Below the pieces are notes generated by a model. The model made no database searches. It was not told the DNA's origin and worked only from the letters and a program-made list of their open reading frames with translations. 64,000 nucleotides of DNA from Mucilaginibacter auburnensis (GTDB taxonomy: Bacteria; Bacteroidota; Bacteroidia; Sphingobacteriales; Sphingobacteriaceae): contig NZ_PGFJ01000001.1 of NCBI RefSeq assembly GCF_002797815.1, positions 186,001 to 250,000 on the forward strand, in the 5' to 3' direction. This document shows positions 21,196 through 30,609 of the stretch, piece by piece; position 1 is the stretch's first letter; each line of letters starts with the position of its first letter. The translations under genes and the position numbers were made by a program.

Positions 21196-21285
21196 GATGG
21201 TTGAGTTTTTAATTAAAACTTAACTTAAAAATAGTTGCTCACTGCTAATATTATTTATACATTACAACAAACTTTAGCATATAAC

Positions 21286-22011
21286 ATGCTCTTAAACCAA
21301 AATTATCAGCACCTTTCTTTCGATCTTTGGCTCACGCTGATACGTTCTAATCCTGATTTTAAGAAAAAAAGGGCAGCTCATTTTCATCAGCACTTTAATT
21401 ACAATAATTGCACGCTTGAGCAAGTAGAACATGCCTTCAGGCAGGTTGATGTGATGTGCAACCTCATCAACGAAAAAACAGGCAAGAACATTGACGCAGA
21501 TGAAATGTACCTGATGGTGCTGAGCATGATGAACAATGCTAATGCTAAAGTATGGCAGATTAACGTTAATGCTCTATATGCCGATATGGAAGCATTACTA
21601 TTTCAAAATTTACCCCTACCCTATTCAGCAGAAACGCTGAACGCGCTTGCATATTTAAAGCAAAACACCAACGCTACAATAGGCATACTTAGTAACACCG
21701 GCTTTATTAAGGGTGTAACATTGCGCAAGGTTTTAAATCAAATTGGTATAGACAGGTATATTGATGTACAACTTTACTCTGATGAGGTCGGCATGTCAAA
21801 ACCAAACACCGGCTTTTTTAAAATGATGCTTGAACAGCTTAAACAACATCATATTCAGGTTGACTTAGATCGTATTATCCATATAGGCGATAACCCTATT
21901 GCAGATGTAGGCGGCGCTAACACTGTTGGTATACGCAGTCAGCTCATCAATTCTAACCACATCTACTTAACAGACATAATTGATAATGCACACCACCTAC
22001 TCCTTACATAA
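21286..22011 (+). CDS. HAD superfamily hydrolase of the Ter operon
   Basis: A 241-residue HAD-fold protein. The nucleophile motif is FDLWLTLI (Asp13), where Trp15 replaces the usual second Asp, as in the DxWxTL subgroup. ILSNTG, SKPNTGFF and IHIGDNPIADVGGA supply the remaining motifs, and an alpha-helical cap lies between. The frame extends to a TTG at 21235, but the ATG at 21286 puts motif I at the usual distance. It overlaps the phosphoribosyltransferase gene by 26 bases. In Ter systems HAD and PRTase proteins are proposed to make or process a nucleoside-like metabolite. Confidence 0.82.
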   Translation: MLLNQNYQHLSFDLWLTLIRSNPDFKKKRAAHFHQHFNYNNCTLEQVEHAFRQVDVMCNLINEKTGKNIDADEMYLMVLSMMNNANAKVWQINVNALYADMEALLFQNLPLPYSAETLNALAYLKQNTNATIGILSNTGFIKGVTLRKVLNQIGIDRYIDVQLYSDEVGMSKPNTGFFKMMLEQLKQHHIQVDLDRIIHIGDNPIADVGGANTVGIRSQLINSNHIYLTDIIDNAHHLLLT

Positions 22012-22819
22012 GATAAGCACTACCGACGACTTTGGCTTCAAGGCGGCCGATTACAGCCGTTTTAAATTTGGTGATGGAGATATTGCCGTCAATTTTGGCG
22101 AGGCATTAGCTATTGGTTTTATAAAAGAACACACGGATTTACTTAATACAGGCCATCAACTGGTAGTAATTCCAAGTCCGTATTCATTTATCCCAACCGC
22201 TACTTTCACCCTTAAAAATACGTTTGTATCAACGCTTAATCGCTGGCTGGCCAAACATAATTTGCCGGTGGTGCAGGAAAATAAGGTACACCGTACCATT
22301 ACTTATAAAGAAGACTATGGCGAATTAAATGCCGAGGAGCGCCTTCGCCTTATCGGCAACGATTCATTTCATATTGATAAAGCCTTTTTAAAAGGCAAAA
22401 CCCTGGTGTTTTTAGATGACATCAGGATAACCGGCGGCCATGAGCGCATGATCAAAAAAATGATAGACGCCTATGAACTGGATAATACCGTTTACATGCT
22501 TTATTTTGCCGAGCTGGTTAATGATGCCATCCACCCAAGCATCGAAAACTATTTGAATTATTTCAGCGTTCAAACTATTTTTGATCTGGATGATATTATT
22601 AACGGTGGCAATTTTTGCATTAACACGCGCATTGTTAAGTACATGCTCAACTATGATCATGAAAGCTTCTGTGTGTTTCTGCAAAATAAGTCCGACGCTT
22701 TTATTAACCAGTTTTATGACATGGCTTTAGGCAATAGTTACCATACAATGGAAAGCTATCGGCCAAATTTAAATTACCTTAGCAACCAATTAGTTTCCAA
22801 CAATAAAAAGTTAGCATAA
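21986..22819 (+). CDS. Phosphoribosyltransferase-fold protein of the Ter operon
   Basis: A 277-residue protein with a PRPP-binding loop VFLDDIRITGGHE, similar to type I phosphoribosyltransferases, in the middle (about residues 135-150). A C-terminal region of about 100 residues (FDLDDIINGGNFCINTR onward) has no family I can name. Genes of this kind accompany TerD/TelA in stress operons. The frame opens at a TTG at 21980; the ATG at 21986 is used. It is translationally coupled to the HAD gene and ends one base before terD1. Confidence 0.78.
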   Translation: MHTTYSLHKISTTDDFGFKAADYSRFKFGDGDIAVNFGEALAIGFIKEHTDLLNTGHQLVVIPSPYSFIPTATFTLKNTFVSTLNRWLAKHNLPVVQENKVHRTITYKEDYGELNAEERLRLIGNDSFHIDKAFLKGKTLVFLDDIRITGGHERMIKKMIDAYELDNTVYMLYFAELVNDAIHPSIENYLNYFSVQTIFDLDDIINGGNFCINTRIVKYMLNYDHESFCVFLQNKSDAFINQFYDMALGNSYHTMESYRPNLNYLSNQLVSNNKKLA

Positions 22820-22820
22820 T

Positions 22821-23375
22821 ATGGCTATTAATCTGCAAAAGGGGCAACGCGAATCTATTTCGGCTCCTAAATTTACCATCGGTTTAGGATGGGATACCAA
22901 TTCATCATCAACAGGATCAGCATTTGACCTTGACGCGTCTGTATTTATTATGGGCGATAATAAAAAGCTTTTAAGTGATGAGCACTTTGTGTTTTATAAC
23001 AACCTTACATCGCCAGACGGCGCTGTTGAACATAGCGGAGATAACCTTACCGGCGACGGCGAAGGCGACGATGAGCAAGTAAAAGTTGACCTGTCGAAAA
23101 TATCACCGCAGGCATCAGAGATCTGCATCGTAATAACCATACATGAAGCAGCTAACCGCCGCCAAAACTTTGGCCAGGTGCGCAACTCATTTATACGTAT
23201 ATTTGATACCGCCACCAATGCGGAGTTGCTTAAATATGAGCTGGAAGAAGATTTCTCAATAGAAACAGCTGTTGAATTCGGTCGCATTTACAAACGCAAC
23301 AACGAGTGGAAATTTGAAGCGGTAGGCGTAGGTATGAAAGGCGGCTTACAGGATTACTTAAACAAATACAACTAA
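22821..23375 (+). CDS. TerD family protein (first copy)
   Basis: A 184-residue TerD domain, a calcium-binding beta-sandwich of tellurite/stress operons. Recognised stretches are FTIGLGWDTN, FDLDASVFIMGDN, FYNNLTSPDGAVEHSGDNLT, GDDEQVKVDLSKI and the final WKFEAVGVGMKGGL. The acidic residues that bind calcium are kept. The N-terminus MAINLQKGQRESI is shared with the next gene, so they arose by duplication, but the proteins have diverged widely. Confidence 0.93.
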   Translation: MAINLQKGQRESISAPKFTIGLGWDTNSSSTGSAFDLDASVFIMGDNKKLLSDEHFVFYNNLTSPDGAVEHSGDNLTGDGEGDDEQVKVDLSKISPQASEICIVITIHEAANRRQNFGQVRNSFIRIFDTATNAELLKYELEEDFSIETAVEFGRIYKRNNEWKFEAVGVGMKGGLQDYLNKYN

Positions 23376-23385
23376 ACCTAAAACA

Positions 23386-23997
23386 ATGGCAATTAATTTA
23401 GAAAAAGGACAGCGCATAAGCCTTGAAAAAAGCAATGGCAGCAAGCTGCAAAATATTTGTGTTGGCATAAACTGGGGCGCTATTGAAAAGAAAGGCCTTT
23501 TTGGCTTCGGCAGTTCAAAAGAAGCCGTAGACCTTGATGCCAGCTGCGCTTTATACAATGACAGCAAACAGTTAGAAGAGGTAGTTTACTTTGGCAACTT
23601 AAAATCAAAAAATGGCGCCGTTAAGCACAGCGGCGACGACCTGACCGGCGACTTAGGCGGTGACGACGGCTTAGACAACGAAGTAATAACAGTTGACCTT
23701 GGCGCTTTGGCTCCTACCACTACGTATGTGGCATTTGTGTTGAACAGTTTCCGCGGACAGGATTTTGGCAGCATACCATTCGCGTCGCTGCGCGTTTACG
23801 AGGGTACTCCAAAACGTGTTAACGAAGTATTTGCCAAATACAATATTACAGGCGGTAACTTTGCGGGCCACGTATCAATGGTATTGGGCGTGTTTTACAA
23901 ACGCAACGGCGAGTGGAAATTTAACGCCATTGGCGAACCTACAAAAGACAAAAAACTACAGGAAACTGTGCAAACAGTAACGCAACAATATTTATAA
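23386..23997 (+). CDS. TerD family protein (second copy)
   Basis: A 203-residue TerD-like protein closer to the TerZ/TerF type, with an insert after the first strand (GAIEKKGLFGFGSSKEAVDL). The motifs VDLDASCALYNDS, NLKSKNGAVKHSGDDLTGDL, GDDGLDNEVITVDL and VFYKRNGEWKFNAIG are clear. It follows the first copy by 10 bases. Both are likely cytoplasmic or membrane-surface proteins. Confidence 0.92.
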   Translation: MAINLEKGQRISLEKSNGSKLQNICVGINWGAIEKKGLFGFGSSKEAVDLDASCALYNDSKQLEEVVYFGNLKSKNGAVKHSGDDLTGDLGGDDGLDNEVITVDLGALAPTTTYVAFVLNSFRGQDFGSIPFASLRVYEGTPKRVNEVFAKYNITGGNFAGHVSMVLGVFYKRNGEWKFNAIGEPTKDKKLQETVQTVTQQYL

Positions 23998-24042
23998 TAA
24001 ACAGCGCTCTACCCTTTGGGCGGAGCCTTACAACTTACAGGC

Positions 24043-25152
24043 ATGGAACCTACTACAAACAGTACAGAACCGGTTGCACCTATAACAGCCGTAAAGTTGA
24101 TTGATAAAGAAGGCAATGTTGACCTTACGCAGGCAACGCCCGAGGATATCAGCAAATATTCGGCTTTAGGAAAAGACCTTAACCCGGCAGATGCTAACTC
24201 CATACTCAACTACGGTGTTGAAGTACAAAACTCAATGGAAAGGTATAGCAACCAGTTCCTTTCATCTGTACGCACCTATAATTCGGGCGAAGTTGGCGGA
24301 TTGATCAATGAGTTATTAGCTGAGCTTAATTATATTGATGTTGACGAACTGGAACAAAATTCCTTTAAAACGTTCCTGTCAAAAATACCTTTTCTAAAAA
24401 ATTTGGTGTTCGACATCAAAAAGATGTTCCAGAAGTATGACCTGGTGATAGCAAACGTCGATAAGATCACCAACAAGGTAAAAGCAGGCAGGTTAAACGC
24501 TATTAAAGATAATAGCTCGCTACAAACCATGTTTGAAAGCAATGTGCAGTACATCCATCAAATGGAAGAACTTATCATATCCGGGCAGTTAAAATATAAG
24601 GAGTTGATGGAGAAGCTGGCCGAAATGGAAGCCAACCCTTCAGCTTATCAGGATTATGAAATAGCCGACTTGCGCGAGTTTAATGGCCGCTTAGATAAGC
24701 GTTTGGCTGATATGAAGATAGTACGCTTCATCATGCTGCAATCATTAGCACAAATACGGGTAGTTCAAAATAACAACACCTCGATAGCAGAAAAAGCACA
24801 GTCGATAGTTTCAACTACTATTCCGGTATGGAAAAATCAGCTTACCATAGCGGTTGCATTGCAAAGGCAAAAAGCCAATGTGGAGATGCAACGCAAAATA
24901 TCTGATACTACTAACACCATCCTTCAAAAAAATGCCGATCTGCTGAAACAGAACAGTATTGATGTGGCGAAGGAGAATGAAAAAACAGTAGTGTCTATAG
25001 ACACGCTAAAGCGCACTACCCAATCGTTAATTGAAACCTTGAACGAGGTTAAACAGATACACGAGCAGGGCACCCAAAACAGAAAAGTATTAAACACCGA
25101 ATTACAAAACCTGGAAACCGAACTAAGAAAGAACGTAACTAACGTAAGTTAA
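24043..25152 (+). CDS. telA: Toxic anion resistance protein (TelA family)
   Basis: A 369-residue, almost wholly helical, coiled-coil protein of the TelA/KlaA family found in tellurite and other stress operons. Characteristic parts are FLSKIPFLKNLVFDIKKMFQ, the SIVSTTIPVWKNQLTIAVAL segment and the C-terminal NADLLKQNSIDVAKENEKTV. The frame opens at a TTG at 24016; I chose the ATG at 24043 (MEPTTNSTEPVAP). It has no signal or membrane segment. Confidence 0.9.
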   Translation: MEPTTNSTEPVAPITAVKLIDKEGNVDLTQATPEDISKYSALGKDLNPADANSILNYGVEVQNSMERYSNQFLSSVRTYNSGEVGGLINELLAELNYIDVDELEQNSFKTFLSKIPFLKNLVFDIKKMFQKYDLVIANVDKITNKVKAGRLNAIKDNSSLQTMFESNVQYIHQMEELIISGQLKYKELMEKLAEMEANPSAYQDYEIADLREFNGRLDKRLADMKIVRFIMLQSLAQIRVVQNNNTSIAEKAQSIVSTTIPVWKNQLTIAVALQRQKANVEMQRKISDTTNTILQKNADLLKQNSIDVAKENEKTVVSIDTLKRTTQSLIETLNEVKQIHEQGTQNRKVLNTELQNLETELRKNVTNVS

Positions 25153-25166
25153 GTTGATGATGCTGC

Positions 25167-26123
25167 ATGGAGGATAACGCTGTATTACGTGAATCAAACC
25201 GTATATTAAATAAACTACATCTTTTATCGGCCTTTTTTGAGGATGAGATAGTTTATAAAATATACCTGCGTACACAGGTTATCCACCGCTTGTATGAGAG
25301 CAATCCGGAGCTTGACGTAAACAAGCTGGAACTTTTTCACGTGCAGTTTACTTCGGCGGTTATTGATCTGCTTAAAAAGATCAAAAAGATCAACGAGCGC
25401 AATACTTCACTTTTGTTTGAAGAGATACAACTCAACAAAGACCTGATTCAAAGCGTAAAGGACAGCGATTTTAACCTTGCCGATTTTAATAATGACAAAC
25501 AACGGCAGGCCCTGCGCATTAATAATTCTTTAAGGCGATTGTATGAAGTACTTTCTTCCGATACGGACGAATACCCCTTTGTAAAGAATATCAACGCTTT
25601 CAGCGCGCGCTATGCGCAGGACTATTTTTTTGATATAAGCGCCGAAACGCTTGCCCAACTTACCGAATACAATCCTAACGAAGTTTACACCCATGCCAGC
25701 GTAATTATTGAGCGCAAGCTAATGGGCAAGGCTTGCAAATACGATTTCAGGACAGAGTTTTATTGCGGACTAAAAACAGGCAACCTGGCCATAGAGGTTT
25801 ATAAGTTTATAGATGAGGATACTTACTATGTATTCAATCCGCAGCGAAACCTGCTTTTGCTTTGCGATGAAGAACTGCTAAAAACCATTGATCAGGCCAG
25901 TGAAGTAACGCGTAATGAAAGAATTATTCAGGAGCTTTTAGACAAAAACGACCAGTTGCAAAGCAGCGCTGCTTTGGCCAGAATCAGTATCCCGGCAGAA
26001 GTAAAAGCTTTATTGGCAGAAAATTATAAGAAGATAACCGACATTAACTTTTTGCAGAATATTGCCGGCTTTGACGCGCAGGCAAATATTTTAAAAACCA
26101 TGCTGAATACCGATATCATTTAG
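25167..26123 (+). CDS. Unknown protein linked to TelA
   Basis: A 318-residue soluble protein that I do not recognise. The first 130 residues are predicted helical with Leu/Lys/Glu-rich segments (LLKKIKKINERNTSLLFEEI). The central part includes KACKYDFRTEFYCGLKTGN and YVFNPQRNLLLLCDEELL, which look like beta strands of a small domain. It sits 14 bases after telA and 54 bases before terC and reads in the same direction, so it belongs to the Ter operon. Confidence 0.7.
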   Translation: MEDNAVLRESNRILNKLHLLSAFFEDEIVYKIYLRTQVIHRLYESNPELDVNKLELFHVQFTSAVIDLLKKIKKINERNTSLLFEEIQLNKDLIQSVKDSDFNLADFNNDKQRQALRINNSLRRLYEVLSSDTDEYPFVKNINAFSARYAQDYFFDISAETLAQLTEYNPNEVYTHASVIIERKLMGKACKYDFRTEFYCGLKTGNLAIEVYKFIDEDTYYVFNPQRNLLLLCDEELLKTIDQASEVTRNERIIQELLDKNDQLQSSAALARISIPAEVKALLAENYKKITDINFLQNIAGFDAQANILKTMLNTDII

Positions 26124-26177
26124 CATATTGTAACACGCAAACACCGCTACAGTCTAAATACATATTTACTTAAACAA

Positions 26178-26990
26178 ATGGACATTTTACATTCGCTTTT
26201 AGGCGAAGACATTAAAGCAGGCTTACTTATTATTTTAAACCTGATCGTAATTGAAAGCTTGTTATCAGTTGATAACGCTGCCGTATTAGCTACCATGGTG
26301 CTTGACTTGCCTAAAGAGCAGCGCAGTAAAGCCTTAAAATATGGTATTATAGGCGCTTACGTTTTCAGGGGTATCTGTTTGTTGGTAGCATCATGGCTGG
26401 TTAAAGTATGGTGGTTGAAACCTTTAGGAGGCTTATATCTCATTTACCTGGCCTTTAGCTACTTCAAAAACAAATCAAAAGATAAAGACGAAGAAGAAGC
26501 CGTAAATAAAGAAGAGAGCTGGCTATACAAATCAACCGTGGGTTTGATCGGTCCGTTTTGGGCTACGGTAGCCTTGGTTGAGTTAATGGACTTAGCTTTT
26601 TCTATTGATAACGTTTTTGCTGCGGTAGCTTTTACAGACCATGTATTTTTGATCTACACCGGTGTATTTATAGGCATATTGGCCATGCGTTTTGTAGCAC
26701 AGGCTTTTGTTAAATTGATGGAGAAATTTACCTTTCTGGAAGCTATAGCATTTATTGTTATAGGTGTGTTGGGTATAAAGTTAACCTCATCACTTTACAC
26801 CCACTTTTACCCGGAAACAGATCTGGCCAAAGCCATTGAAGGCGAGCATACCGATATGCTGGTATCCATATTTACCGTAGCCATATTTGTGCTGCCGGTA
26901 TTATCATCACTGTTATTCAATTATCCTAAAAAGAACGTTGTGAAGCCGGAAGTTGCTGAAGCGGCGGAGGACGTTTTGGATAAGAGTTAA
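26178..26990 (+). CDS. terC: TerC family integral membrane protein
   Basis: A 270-residue polytopic protein of the TerC/Alx family with seven to eight helices. The paired acidic motifs ESLLSVDNAAVLA and ELMDLAFSIDNVFAAVAF are hallmarks thought to bind metal, probably manganese. TerC proteins take part in metal efflux and stress resistance. It closes the Ter operon; a palindromic repeat follows 19 bases later. Confidence 0.92.
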   Translation: MDILHSLLGEDIKAGLLIILNLIVIESLLSVDNAAVLATMVLDLPKEQRSKALKYGIIGAYVFRGICLLVASWLVKVWWLKPLGGLYLIYLAFSYFKNKSKDKDEEEAVNKEESWLYKSTVGLIGPFWATVALVELMDLAFSIDNVFAAVAFTDHVFLIYTGVFIGILAMRFVAQAFVKLMEKFTFLEAIAFIVIGVLGIKLTSSLYTHFYPETDLAKAIEGEHTDMLVSIFTVAIFVLPVLSSLLFNYPKKNVVKPEVAEAAEDVLDKS

Positions 26991-27008
26991 AAGGCATTTA
27001 ACAAAAAT

Positions 27009-27105
27009 GTCATTCTGAGCGATAGCGAAGAATCTTATTCGCTTTGCTACCTAAGCGCTTTTTAAAGCATAGTTTATTAGATTCTTCACTGCGTTCCAGA
27101 ATGAC
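27009..27105. repeat. Palindromic element, family A copy 2
   Basis: Arms 27009-27035 and 27079-27105 are imperfect inverted repeats. The left arm is identical over 26 bases to the copy at 6709-6734, while the right arm has drifted. It lies just after terC, and could act as a terminator there. Confidence 0.8.
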
Positions 27106-27200
27106 AACCTTTTACATGACAGGTTAGACCAATTATGCCTACTTAAAGGCCGTTCGTCTTTCTCAACTTTTCCTGCTAAATTAGCTGTACAACATTTGCC

Positions 27201-28604
27201 ATGGAAAAAGTTACCGCAGCCTGGCTGCAAAGCATAGATGCACTAAAGGATGTACCCCTTGAACAATTGCAATGGTTCCTGGACCAAAGCGAGCAAATTA
27301 CCCTCCAGGAAGGCGACCCTATTTTCATACCCAACGAACCCATAAAAGGCACCTATATAGTAATTGACGGCAGTTTTCGCATTTGTATGCCTATGGGCAA
27401 AGAAATGAGGGAGGTTGGCGTGTTCGAGGCGCAGGATATTACCGGGCACCTCCCCTTCTCGCGCAGTAAAACGGCTATCGGCAAAGCGGAGGTTGTAGAA
27501 ACCGTCACTTTTTTATTGTTTCCCATTGAGCGCGAAGAAGCCATGATACGTAGTCAGTTTGAACTGACCCAGGCATTGGTACACGTAATGGCCAACCGCA
27601 TCCGCGACTTTACAGCCCTGCAACAGCAGAACGAAAAAATGATGGCGCTGGGTAAGCTCTCAGCAGGTTTAGCGCATGAGCTGAATAACCCGGCTTCTGC
27701 AGTGGTACGTGGTTCGGCATCGTTGTTGAAACACCTTAAGCTGGTGCCTGATGCATTCAAACAGGTAATGTCGCTTAAGCTGAGCGTTAATGACGTTAGT
27801 TTTGTGAGCGATAAACTCTTCGGCGTTATCTGCAAAGACGAAAAACCCACCATGAGCATGATGGAACGCTCAGAAAAAGAAGACGACGTGCTTGACTGGC
27901 TGGATGATAACGATATTGACAACAGCCAGGAAATTGCAGAAAACCTGGTTGATTTCGGCTTCGGGGTTGATGACCTCAACGATTTTAAAAAACACATCCC
28001 GACCGAAGCGCTCTCTCCGGTTTTTGGCTGGATCAACAACAACCTCGTCACCGAAAAAATGGTGATAGATATAGAGGAAGCGTCCCGCCGCATTGCCACT
28101 TTGGTAGGTGCCGTTAAAACATTCACTCATATGGATCAGGGCCATGGCAAGCAGTATACTGATATTCATATCGGCATACGCAATACCCTTACCATGCTTC
28201 AGCATAAAATAAAGCAAGGCAATGTTAAGGTGGACGAACTATTTGATACTACCCTACCGCCTGTAAACGCCCTCATTGGCGAACTTAATCAGGTTTGGAC
28301 CAACCTGATAGACAACGCCCTTGATGCTATGGAAGGCAGCGGCAAAAGCGTACTTCAAATAAAAACCGGTCGGGCCAAAGATTGTGTACAGGTTGTTATT
28401 ATTGACAACGGGCCCGGTATACCCGACGATGTGAAGAGCCGCATTTTCGATCCTTTCTTTACCACCAAAGAAGCCGGCAAAGGCACCGGCCTTGGTTTAG
28501 ATGTGGTAAACAACATTGTAAAACAACATAACGGAAAAATAAAACTGGAATCAGAACCCGGCCGCACTGCATTTATTGTTGAGTTCCCTTTTAATGGTAA
28601 TTAG
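27201..28604 (+). CDS. Histidine kinase with cyclic-nucleotide-binding-like domain
   Basis: A 467-residue soluble kinase. Residues about 15-125 form a cNMP-binding-type beta barrel (VIDGSFRICMPMGKEMREVG), but the phosphate-binding cassette (ITGHLPFSRSKTAIGKAE) is degenerate, so the ligand is uncertain. Dimerisation helix: ALGKLSAGLAHELNNPA with phospho-acceptor His159. ATPase: VWTNLIDNALDAM (N box), IIDNGPGIPDD (G1), GTGLGLDVVNNIV (G2). Between His159 and the ATPase is a long helical insert. Its partner, a receiver-fused flavoprotein, starts 17 bases later. Confidence 0.88.
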   Translation: MEKVTAAWLQSIDALKDVPLEQLQWFLDQSEQITLQEGDPIFIPNEPIKGTYIVIDGSFRICMPMGKEMREVGVFEAQDITGHLPFSRSKTAIGKAEVVETVTFLLFPIEREEAMIRSQFELTQALVHVMANRIRDFTALQQQNEKMMALGKLSAGLAHELNNPASAVVRGSASLLKHLKLVPDAFKQVMSLKLSVNDVSFVSDKLFGVICKDEKPTMSMMERSEKEDDVLDWLDDNDIDNSQEIAENLVDFGFGVDDLNDFKKHIPTEALSPVFGWINNNLVTEKMVIDIEEASRRIATLVGAVKTFTHMDQGHGKQYTDIHIGIRNTLTMLQHKIKQGNVKVDELFDTTLPPVNALIGELNQVWTNLIDNALDAMEGSGKSVLQIKTGRAKDCVQVVIIDNGPGIPDDVKSRIFDPFFTTKEAGKGTGLGLDVVNNIVKQHNGKIKLESEPGRTAFIVEFPFNGN

Positions 28605-28621
28605 CCTATATTTATACCACC

Positions 28622-30289
28622 ATGAGTCTGCCCATAATTTTTTGTATTGATGATGATGCCCAGGTACTAAGGGCTATTACCCGCGATTTGAAAAGTCGCT
28701 ACCGAGACAGATATAGAATACTAAGCACAACAAGCGTACAGGAGGCGCTAACCAGCCTGCACGACCTGAACAACAAGGGCGAAAATATTGCGCTGTTCAT
28801 ATCAGATCAGCGCATGCCCGAAATGGCCGGTGTTGATTTTTTATGTAAAGCGTTGGATTATTTCCCTGAAGCAAAAAGGGTATTACTAACTGCCTATGCG
28901 GATAAGGATGCCGCCATACAAGCTATCAATGAAGTAAAGCTAAACTATTACTTGATAAAGCCCTGGGACCCACCCGAGGAAAAACTATTCCCGGTGATAG
29001 ATGACCTGTTGGATAACTGGGAGTGCGATTACCACCCGGTGTTTAAAGGCATAAAGGTTATTGGGTACCAGTACTCGCAACGCTCGCATGACTTGAAAGA
29101 CTTTTTGGCCGGTAACCTGGTTCCTTACCAGTGGCTGGATATCCAAACCGAAAAGGAAGCTGAAAAGCTACTCAAGCATAATAACTTAACAACAAACGAT
29201 CTTCCGGTTGTGATACTGGATGATGGCGGCGTTTTGAAAAACCCGGGCATTGTTGAAGTAGCCGAAAAGATAGGCCTCAACCCTCAGGTAGCACGCCAGG
29301 ATGTTTATGATGTGGTAATTATAGGTGCAGGTCCTGCGGGCCTGGCAGCGGGCGTATATGGCGCATCGGAAGGCTTAAAGACTTTGCTGATCGAACGCCG
29401 CGCACCTGGTGGACAAGCTGGCACGAGCTCTCGTATTGAGAATTATTTAGGGTTTCCTACCGGCTTGAGTGGCGCAGAGTTAACCCGTCGCGCCATGACG
29501 CAGGCGGCAAGATTGGGTACCGAGTTTCTTTCACCACAAACTGTTAAGGCCATACAGCAAAAAGATGGCTATAAACGCATTGTAATGGAAGATGCGGAAG
29601 ACATTGTTACCCGCAGCGTAATAGTTACTACCGGTGTTGATTACCGCAAGCTCGAAACGCCCGGTATGAGTGAGTTTACAGGTGCCGGCATCTATTACGG
29701 TGCAGCCATGACCGAAGCGACCGCCTGTCGCGATAAACAGGTTTACGTGGTAGGCGGAGGTAACTCAGCAGGACAGGCGGCCATGTACTTGTCAAAATTT
29801 GCCAAAGATGTCTATATCCTCATCCGCAAGGATAGCTTGAGCTACACCATGTCGGCTTATTTGATTGAGCAGATAGCAGGCGAGGCTAATATTAAGGTAA
29901 TGCCTAAAACAGAGATCACCTCAGCCTATGGTTCTGAACGATTAGAGAGCCTGGATATACAGGATCTGGAAACCGGTGAGACAACCCGCAAAACGGCCGA
30001 TGCACTCTACATTTTCATCGGCGCCAAGCCTTTTACAGACTGGCTGGGTCTTGATATTATAAAGGACGATCGCGGTTTTATTGAAACCGGGCGCGACTTG
30101 CGGCAGAACAGTGAGTTTGGTAAAATATGGAAGCAAAAACGCGAACCTTATTTGCTGGAAACCAGTTGCCCCGGTGTATTTGCCGCGGGCGATGTACGTG
30201 CCGGAGCAATGAACAGGGTAGCATCTGCCGTAGGCGAAGGCTCAATGGCTATTAGTTTCGTACATAAATACTTAGCAGAGGTTAAATAA
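28622..30289 (+). CDS. Receiver domain fused to thioredoxin-reductase-like flavoprotein
   Basis: A 555-residue fusion. Residues 1-130 are a response-regulator receiver with Asp10-Asp12, phospho-acceptor Asp62 (ISDQRMPEM), Thr90 and Lys113. Residues about 143-226 look like a glutaredoxin/thioredoxin fold (GYQYSQRSHDLKDFL, LVPYQWLDIQ) without a Cys pair. Residues 230-555 are a FAD/NAD(P) reductase: VIIGAGPAGLAAG (FAD), VYVVGGGNSAGQAAMY (NAD(P)), VFAAGDVRAG (FAD). The redox CxxC of true thioredoxin reductase is missing: the segment between the cofactor sites reads YYGAAMTEATACRDK. It may reduce another acceptor under control of phosphorylation. Confidence 0.87.
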   Translation: MSLPIIFCIDDDAQVLRAITRDLKSRYRDRYRILSTTSVQEALTSLHDLNNKGENIALFISDQRMPEMAGVDFLCKALDYFPEAKRVLLTAYADKDAAIQAINEVKLNYYLIKPWDPPEEKLFPVIDDLLDNWECDYHPVFKGIKVIGYQYSQRSHDLKDFLAGNLVPYQWLDIQTEKEAEKLLKHNNLTTNDLPVVILDDGGVLKNPGIVEVAEKIGLNPQVARQDVYDVVIIGAGPAGLAAGVYGASEGLKTLLIERRAPGGQAGTSSRIENYLGFPTGLSGAELTRRAMTQAARLGTEFLSPQTVKAIQQKDGYKRIVMEDAEDIVTRSVIVTTGVDYRKLETPGMSEFTGAGIYYGAAMTEATACRDKQVYVVGGGNSAGQAAMYLSKFAKDVYILIRKDSLSYTMSAYLIEQIAGEANIKVMPKTEITSAYGSERLESLDIQDLETGETTRKTADALYIFIGAKPFTDWLGLDIIKDDRGFIETGRDLRQNSEFGKIWKQKREPYLLETSCPGVFAAGDVRAGAMNRVASAVGEGSMAISFVHKYLAEVK

Positions 30290-30552
30290 TGGAAGTTTGC
30301 CAACACTTAAAAGAAATAACCAGCCTAAAGGTGGCTGATAAACTGGTTTGCGAAGAATGTGTTAAAGAAGGAGGCAACTGGGTGCACTTACGAACCTGTC
30401 AAACCTGCGGTGTAACCCTGTGCTGCGATAGTTCGCCTATGAAGCATATGACAGCCCATTACCATGCAACGCACCATCCGGTAGTAACCTCTGCCGAGCC
30501 CGGCGAACGCTGGCTGTGGTGCTACGCTGACGAGGCTTTTGCTGAATATTAA
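30289..30552 (+). CDS. UBP-type zinc finger protein
   Basis: An 87-residue protein that is essentially a single ZnF-UBP domain. Likely zinc ligands are Cys4, His6, Cys21, Cys24, Cys37, Cys40, Cys45 and histidines at 53, 57/59 and 62/63, with the family ending GERWLWCYADEAFAEY. In eukaryotes the domain binds the free C-terminus of ubiquitin; the bacterial target is unknown. The start ATG overlaps the stop of the flavoprotein gene (TAATG), so the two are translated together. Confidence 0.88.
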   Translation: MEVCQHLKEITSLKVADKLVCEECVKEGGNWVHLRTCQTCGVTLCCDSSPMKHMTAHYHATHHPVVTSAEPGERWLWCYADEAFAEY

Positions 30553-30576: not shown

Positions 30577-30609
30577 AAAAAGCGCCCTTGTAATACAAGA
30601 GCGCTTTTT
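30577..30609. terminator. Bidirectional terminator
   Basis: AAAAAGCGC (30577-30585) and GCGCTTTTT (30601-30609) pair, with an inner CTTG/CAAG stem. A/T runs on both sides fit termination of the convergent UBP and fasciclin genes. Confidence 0.8.

Follow-up and report, generated by a model that had tools for sequence, protein, structure and literature searches.

A three-gene unit of Mucilaginibacter auburnensis appears to encode a two-component system that acts through a flavoprotein lacking both of the dithiol sites that its folds would lead one to expect. The unit lies in a 64,000-nucleotide stretch of contig NZ_PGFJ01000001.1 (assembly GCF_002797815.1, positions 186,001 to 250,000), which we analyzed and call the window. 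Its genes encode a soluble histidine kinase, a receiver domain joined to a thioredoxin-reductase-fold flavoprotein, and a small zinc-finger protein of the zf-UBP family (hereafter UBP). The kinase and flavoprotein are the core of the system, and UBP is a frequent option. From sequence and gene neighborhood, we consider it reasonably probable that the kinase and receiver govern a dithiol-less NAD(P)H flavoprotein and that UBP acts as an adaptor to a target. All three open reading frames (ORFs) were found on the + strand where a first-pass annotation, made from the sequence alone, had placed them. The overlapping stop and start that it reported for the last two genes is the sequence TAATG at 30287-30291, in which the flavoprotein TAA and the UBP ATG overlap by 1 nucleotide (nt). 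A hairpin closes the unit, although a simple terminator scan did not list it. The features are as follows, in window coordinates and amino acids (aa).

27201..28604, + strand: soluble histidine kinase, 467 aa (ORF and Pfam domains)
Within 27201..28604, + strand: Crp/cNMP-type barrel (aa 34-116), H-box with His159, and HATPase domain (aa 361-464) of the kinase (profile matches, alignment)
28622..30289, + strand: receiver, glutaredoxin-like and thioredoxin-reductase-fold flavoprotein, 555 aa (ORF, profiles, alignment)
28637..28975, + strand: receiver domain (aa 6-118); Asp62 with Asp10-12, Thr90 and Lys113 (profile, alignment)
29042..29287, + strand: glutaredoxin-fold domain (aa 141-222), with Ser152 and Ser155 where the CxxC cysteines belong (profile, model, alignment)
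29306..30274, + strand: two-Rossmann FAD/NAD(P)H domain (aa 229-551), lacking the dithiol site (profile, alignment)
29699..29716, + strand: GAAMTE (aa 360-365), replacing the CxxC of thioredoxin reductase (alignment)
30289..30552, + strand: zf-UBP protein, 87 aa (ORF, profile)
30577..30609, + strand: terminator-like hairpin followed by U residues (fold z -4.97)

The flavoprotein is very probably not a dithiol reductase. Pfam recognizes a Response_reg domain (4e-12) and a Pyr_redox_2 domain (1.9e-33) in the fusion protein, and we aligned 58 members of its family, 44 with a receiver and 14 without. These came from 65 flavoprotein ORFs; the seven left out were two fragments each from loci L036 and L074, L048 (truncated by a locus end), L057 (identical to L035) and the divergent L099 (34%). 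Asp10-12, Asp62, Thr90 and Lys113 are invariant in 44/44 receivers, so that the phospho-acceptor set is complete, and the FAD and nucleotide-binding glycines are retained across the alignment. The CxxC of thioredoxin reductase is missing in 58/58 members; the position reads G-A-A-x-T-E in most, and Glu365 stands at the former CxxC place in 57. Six of the seven omitted ORFs were also read and have no CxxC. At L036 and L074 the gene is split into two ORFs, probably by a frameshift or an assembly error. The L099 protein (Streptomyces, L099:4902-6593) likewise has no CxxC, and its receiver-like head looks degenerate around the phospho-acceptor.

The second dithiol site is lost in a domain that the first-pass annotation did not recognize. 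Its two-domain description of the middle protein has to be replaced, as a glutaredoxin-fold domain lies between receiver and flavoprotein. A profile built from 27 of the 58 members matches mycobacterial glutaredoxin 2lqo over residues about 141-222 (E 3.2e-9), and Pfam Glutaredoxin is found in 10 of the 27 at E <=0.1 (best 3.4e-6; the window's copy, at 0.099, is under the family cut-off). Folded alone, the domain gives a model with a predicted local distance difference test score (pLDDT) of 87.5, which in the PDB best matches a glutaredoxin fusion protein, mycoredoxin and thioredoxin-like proteins. The glutaredoxin CxxC aligns with SxxS: Ser152 is present in 43/44 and Ser155 in 41/44 receiver members, Ser also occupies position 152 in 9/14 receiver-less members, and Cys occupies it in 0/58. 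The first active-site Cys of a glutaredoxin CxxC or CxxS was thus not encountered in any of the 58. The earlier picture of a receiver fused to a thioredoxin-reductase-like enzyme therefore stands for the fusion and for the intact receiver, and the reductase label holds for the fold only, both CxxC sites being absent.

We surveyed 198 Bacteroidota genomes with three protein searches, requiring E <=1e-70 and a match starting at residue <=4 for the receiver-flavoprotein and E <=1e-60 for the kinase. The kinase and the full-length receiver-flavoprotein occur in the identical 28/198 genomes (hypergeometric 1e-34, a value that depends on the thresholds and is uncorrected for relatedness), and 26 of the 28 pairs lie within 260 nt. 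Among the 26 are a divergently oriented pair (G014) and one (G086) whose kinase match covers residues 140-465 and so misses the barrel. In G183 an antiporter-UBP gene stands between kinase and flavoprotein. Four genomes (G103, G122, G138 and G182) have only receiver-less flavoproteins, and they have no kinase at E <=1e-60. The kinase is also present at 9/10 loci collected by similarity to the window's flavoprotein and at 17/18 loci of that flavoprotein's family; one of the 18, L057, duplicates a locus of the ten, L035. The concern that these genes might rarely be neighbors in other genomes is thus not borne out for the kinase and flavoprotein.

The association extends to plasmid records from other phyla, where ORF calls are overlong in GC-rich loci. 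A receiver-type head is present at 7/11 opened flavoprotein-led loci; receiver-headed records H62, H67, H69 and H70 lay outside the sample opened. In six of the seven, the kinase is directly downstream (Nostoc, Streptomyces fungicidicus, Deinococcus aetherius, Gloeothece, Caballeronia and Tsukamurella), and the divergent seventh, L099, has no kinase listed nearby. All four kinases scanned from these receiver-headed loci carry a cNMP barrel. We are highly confident that kinase and receiver form a cognate pair. The proposal that phosphorylation controls the flavoprotein is accordingly supported in part, at the level of sequence: the complete phospho-acceptor set and this co-occurrence speak for a kinase-receiver pair with a flavoprotein output.

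In the kinase, Pfam detects HATPase_c (1.5e-25) and cNMP_binding (9.8e-7; 29.1 bits against a cut-off of 27.5), together with a HisKA match under the family cut-off (0.0087). Conservation of His159 and of the ATP-binding motifs reaches at least 95% across 46 kinase ORFs (47 minus one L036 fragment, with L057 and two second kinases included). The barrel of 39 of these, 38 from Bacteroidota and 1 from Deinococcus, contains a Gx[LI]P[FY]SR motif, read by eye, that is absent in the other 7. It occupies what we take to be the place of the canonical cyclic-nucleotide phosphate-binding cassette with its Glu and Arg. A soluble kinase with a presumably sensory barrel is confirmed; its ‘cNMP’ label is weak, as the match lies just over the cut-off and the motif is non-canonical.

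A barrel of the same type is found on the flavoprotein itself in relatives that lack the receiver. Seven of the 9 scanned are headed by cNMP_binding (one just under the cut-off) and 2 have none. Such heads occur in Rhodococcus, Streptomyces angustmyceticus and Agrobacterium, with Rhizobium just under the cut-off, and on the flavoproteins of L052, L076 and L089; the flavoprotein heads scanned from Burkholderia and Paraburkholderia contain no cNMP_binding. A tree made by a quick method separates the receiver-headed members from the others at a branch with support 88, although a very long outgroup branch makes the root unsure. A barrel is thus found in one of two places, directly on the flavoprotein or on a kinase partnered with the receiver that heads it, and we infer that either wiring would allow one type of sensor to gate one type of core.

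The small third protein is a zf-UBP finger (4.7e-11), and its best solved relative is 2ida_A (E 7.6e-26), a structural-genomics entry deposited as a hypothetical protein, with which it has CCD-x-S and H-L-R motifs in common. The zinc-ligand Cys and His columns are kept in 42-47 of 47 sequences, with some gaps from cut ORFs. UBP belongs to the same zinc-finger family as the zf-UBP domains of HDAC6 and ubiquitin-specific proteases (USP), but the Arg-Tyr pair of the HDAC6 tail pocket, whose Arg contacts the ubiquitin tail carboxylate, is replaced in the bacterial members. The Arg column reads Ser in 39, Asp in 4, Gln in 3 and Ala in 1, with Arg in 0/47, and the Tyr column reads Ser in 47/47. Arg35, present in 46/47, has no HDAC6 counterpart in the alignment and could substitute for the HDAC6 Arg. 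The aromatic pocket is kept, with Trp, Tyr or Phe at position 77 in 47/47 and Tyr or Phe at position 79 in 46/47. Prokaryotic zf-UBP contexts have reportedly been surveyed by the Aravind group.

Counted at the family cut-off, which leaves out sub-threshold G023 and G131, zf-UBP is present in 23/198 Bacteroidota genomes and lies within 1 kb of the kinase or flavoprotein in 18/23; wide flanks were retrieved for all UBP loci but those of G026, G100 and G163. The flavoprotein family is found in 21/23 UBP genomes versus 32/198 overall (p 3e-18, again threshold-dependent and uncorrected for relatedness). Among plasmid records listed for both proteins (60 of 87 UBP, 60 of 134 flavoprotein), 19/20 have the two within 1 kb by coordinates, many of them Rhodococcus near-copies. 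Of 14 UBP-led plasmid loci opened, 6 have a flavoprotein nearby and 2 are antiporter fusions. Streptomyces fungicidicus and Tsukamurella have the three-gene set, with UBP last and with 4-nt overlaps, and UBP also lies next to relatives with a cNMP head or none in Rhodococcus, Streptomyces, Rhizobium, Agrobacterium, Burkholderia and Paraburkholderia. The three-gene grouping therefore survives for kinase and flavoprotein; the link to UBP recurs across phyla but is far from universal. These data make it probable that UBP is a working partner of the flavoprotein. On two actinobacterial plasmids (L080, Rhodococcus; L100, Streptomyces angustmyceticus), UBP and a flavoprotein with a cNMP head stand last in clusters that contain dnaJ, clpB and trxA. 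In Tsukamurella (L096:8134-10261), the UBP gene is followed by genes for S-(hydroxymethyl)mycothiol dehydrogenase and a metallo-beta-lactamase (MBL) hydrolase.

Other lineages offer a candidate target. In all 12 fetched loci of Bacteroidota family f22, UBP and a Kef-like CPA2 antiporter lie no more than 0.82 kb apart; one of these antiporters, scanned with Pfam, has Na_H_Exchanger and TrkA_N domains. Within 5 kb, f22 loci also contain a DsbA-like gene (7/12), a carboxylesterase (8/12) and a glyoxalase (7/12). A different Kef/YbaL-like antiporter, 23% identical to that of f22, is fused to UBP in two f28 Bacteroidota genomes and on two Deinococcus plasmids. Where fused or adjacent to UBP, the antiporter is probably the target of the module. 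That the system controls antiporters in some lineages is a tentative and somewhat doubtful suggestion.

The mechanism that we favor begins inside the cell, where the kinase would sense an internal signal through its Crp-like barrel. It would then phosphorylate Asp62 of the receiver, and this phosphorylation may change how active or how exposed the flavoprotein part is. The FAD of that part would accept hydride from NAD(P)H. Since the glutaredoxin-like and reductase CxxC sites are both gone, electrons would not leave through a dithiol; the flavoprotein might instead reduce a non-thiol acceptor, such as a quinone, an electrophile, oxygen or a protein carrier, or serve as a switch poised by NAD(P)H. 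UBP would act as a small adaptor, binding proteins and so linking the module to its target.

Several observations weigh against this proposal. Cys369 is kept in 43/58 flavoproteins (Phe, Thr, Val or Ile in the others) and a lone Cys stands at the second glutaredoxin position (155) in 3/58, which leaves room for single-cysteine chemistry. The full-length AlphaFold model is weak (pLDDT 66) and domain packing cannot be read from it. In G133 the kinase and flavoprotein are on different contigs. The M. auburnensis genome contains one class III cyclase, so that an argument against a cNMP signal from missing cyclases does not hold and such a signal may be genuine. UBP is alongside only 2/10 loci similar to the window's flavoprotein and only 7/18 family loci; it is missing from the fetched flanks of 8/11 flavoprotein-led plasmid loci (3 have it), and 6/14 UBP-led plasmid loci (Hymenobacter, Oscillatoria, Nostoc C057, Streptomyces NBC_01558, Variovorax and Nonomuraea) have neither flavoprotein nor antiporter in reach. 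As to the antiporters, their scores of 132.7, 292.9 and 279.7 bits fall far short of the KefC NCBIfam cut-off of 752, 4/16 antiporter-UBP loci (L039, L041, L082 and L090) lack a flavoprotein within the sequence retrieved, and the M. auburnensis genome encodes nothing closely similar to the f22 antiporter (best 30% over residues 5-315, E 6e-8).

Four other explanations divide between the flavoprotein and UBP. The flavoprotein could work without turnover, as an NAD(P)H/NAD(P)+ sensor or a scaffold, with the receiver, the kinase or UBP reading the state of its FAD. Both dithiol exits are gone together while the nucleotide motifs are kept, and one core accepts either a receiver or a cNMP barrel as its head, as this explanation would have it; the near-invariance of Glu365 and the strictness of the FAD and nucleotide motifs suggest that chemistry has been retained, and we judge this explanation possible but less than likely. 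Control of a thioredoxin reductase or AhpF-type disulfide reductase by a two-component system is very improbable. The top NCBIfam matches are indeed thioredoxin reductase and AhpF types, the top PDB matches are thioredoxin reductases, and AhpF also has a thioredoxin-fold head. Against this, the protein scores 237.8 bits where TRX_reduct (TIGR01292) has its cut-off at 343.45, CxxC is absent from both sites throughout the alignment, and M. auburnensis encodes a canonical thioredoxin reductase, with CAVC, as a different protein.

UBP might be a co-transcribed passenger outside the mechanism, given that it is missing beside most close relatives and occurs alone elsewhere. The frequency with which UBP genomes carry the flavoprotein family, the proximity of the two genes in both Bacteroidota genomes and plasmid records, and the overlapping genes in Actinomycetota make this unlikely. 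It is improbable that the finger reads a ubiquitin-like or other free C-terminal tail. Bacterial ubiquitin-like systems exist, and the zinc ligands, Arg35 and the aromatic positions 77 and 79 are kept, but both residues of the HDAC6 pair are replaced in every sequence aligned; a ubiquitin search of the genome (PF00240) gave no match, but its controls gave none either, so it is uninformative. A broader extension of the two-component proposal would describe a widespread and undescribed signaling class, in which a dithiol-less AhpF-like flavoprotein serves as an NAD(P)H switch. A cNMP-type barrel would gate it, either directly or by way of a barrel-bearing kinase and a receiver, and under redox or electrophile stress the switch would act, by means of a non-ubiquitin UBP finger, on Kef-type cation/proton antiporters or on other effectors. 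We put this forward as a long shot.

Among known systems, low-Mr thioredoxin reductase and AhpF have the two-Rossmann fold in common with the window's family, which differs in having neither CxxC. Thioredoxin-reductase-type ferredoxin/flavodoxin NADP+ reductases are a weaker sequence match than thioredoxin reductases; like the window's protein they have an FAD/NAD(P)H core without a redox dithiol, but they have no receiver or glutaredoxin head. KefF is the flavoprotein partner of KefC, and the arrangement in other lineages, where an RCK-bearing CPA2 antiporter sits with the flavoprotein, resembles theirs. The present system differs in its flavoprotein family, its two-component control, its UBP finger, antiporter scores far under the KefC cut-off and a window locus with no antiporter gene. 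What is already known is the architecture of a receiver (REC) with thioredoxin reductase: passages of PMC5847659 report REC-thioredoxin reductase response regulators, a ‘Mycobacterium-like combination’, in two Heimdallarchaeota, and this is the same receiver and thioredoxin-reductase-fold fusion as in the window's protein. Those passages treat architecture only and do not mention dithiol loss, the glutaredoxin domain, a kinase partner, UBP or an antiporter. In a literature search that covered few subscription papers and was read mostly at the level of listings, we found nothing published on the loss of the dithiols or on the links to UBP and to antiporters; PMC8945050, searched by term, yielded nothing relevant. 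If our proposal is correct, a broad family that is often annotated as thioredoxin-disulfide reductase has another function, a metabolic-type flavoenzyme is under direct phosphorelay control, and bacterial UBP fingers have a testable non-ubiquitin role.

Upstream of the unit and on the same strand, genes at 21235-26987 encode a HAD hydrolase, a ComF-like phosphoribosyltransferase, two TerD proteins, TelA, an unassigned 318-aa ORF and TerC, and constitute a Ter-type stress cluster. We rejected Ter, TelA and TerC as members of the unit: a TerD match at L090 is the only one among loci L027-L101. A role in anti-phage defense was likewise set aside, as the three proteins have no PADLOC match; one phage record matches part of the UBP protein. 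Just 5’ of the kinase gene, an imperfect 41-nt inverted repeat at 27008-27106 (fold z -7.67) looks like a small dispersed repeat. A pattern from one of its arms matches the genome exactly at 7 sites, against 0 in a backward control.

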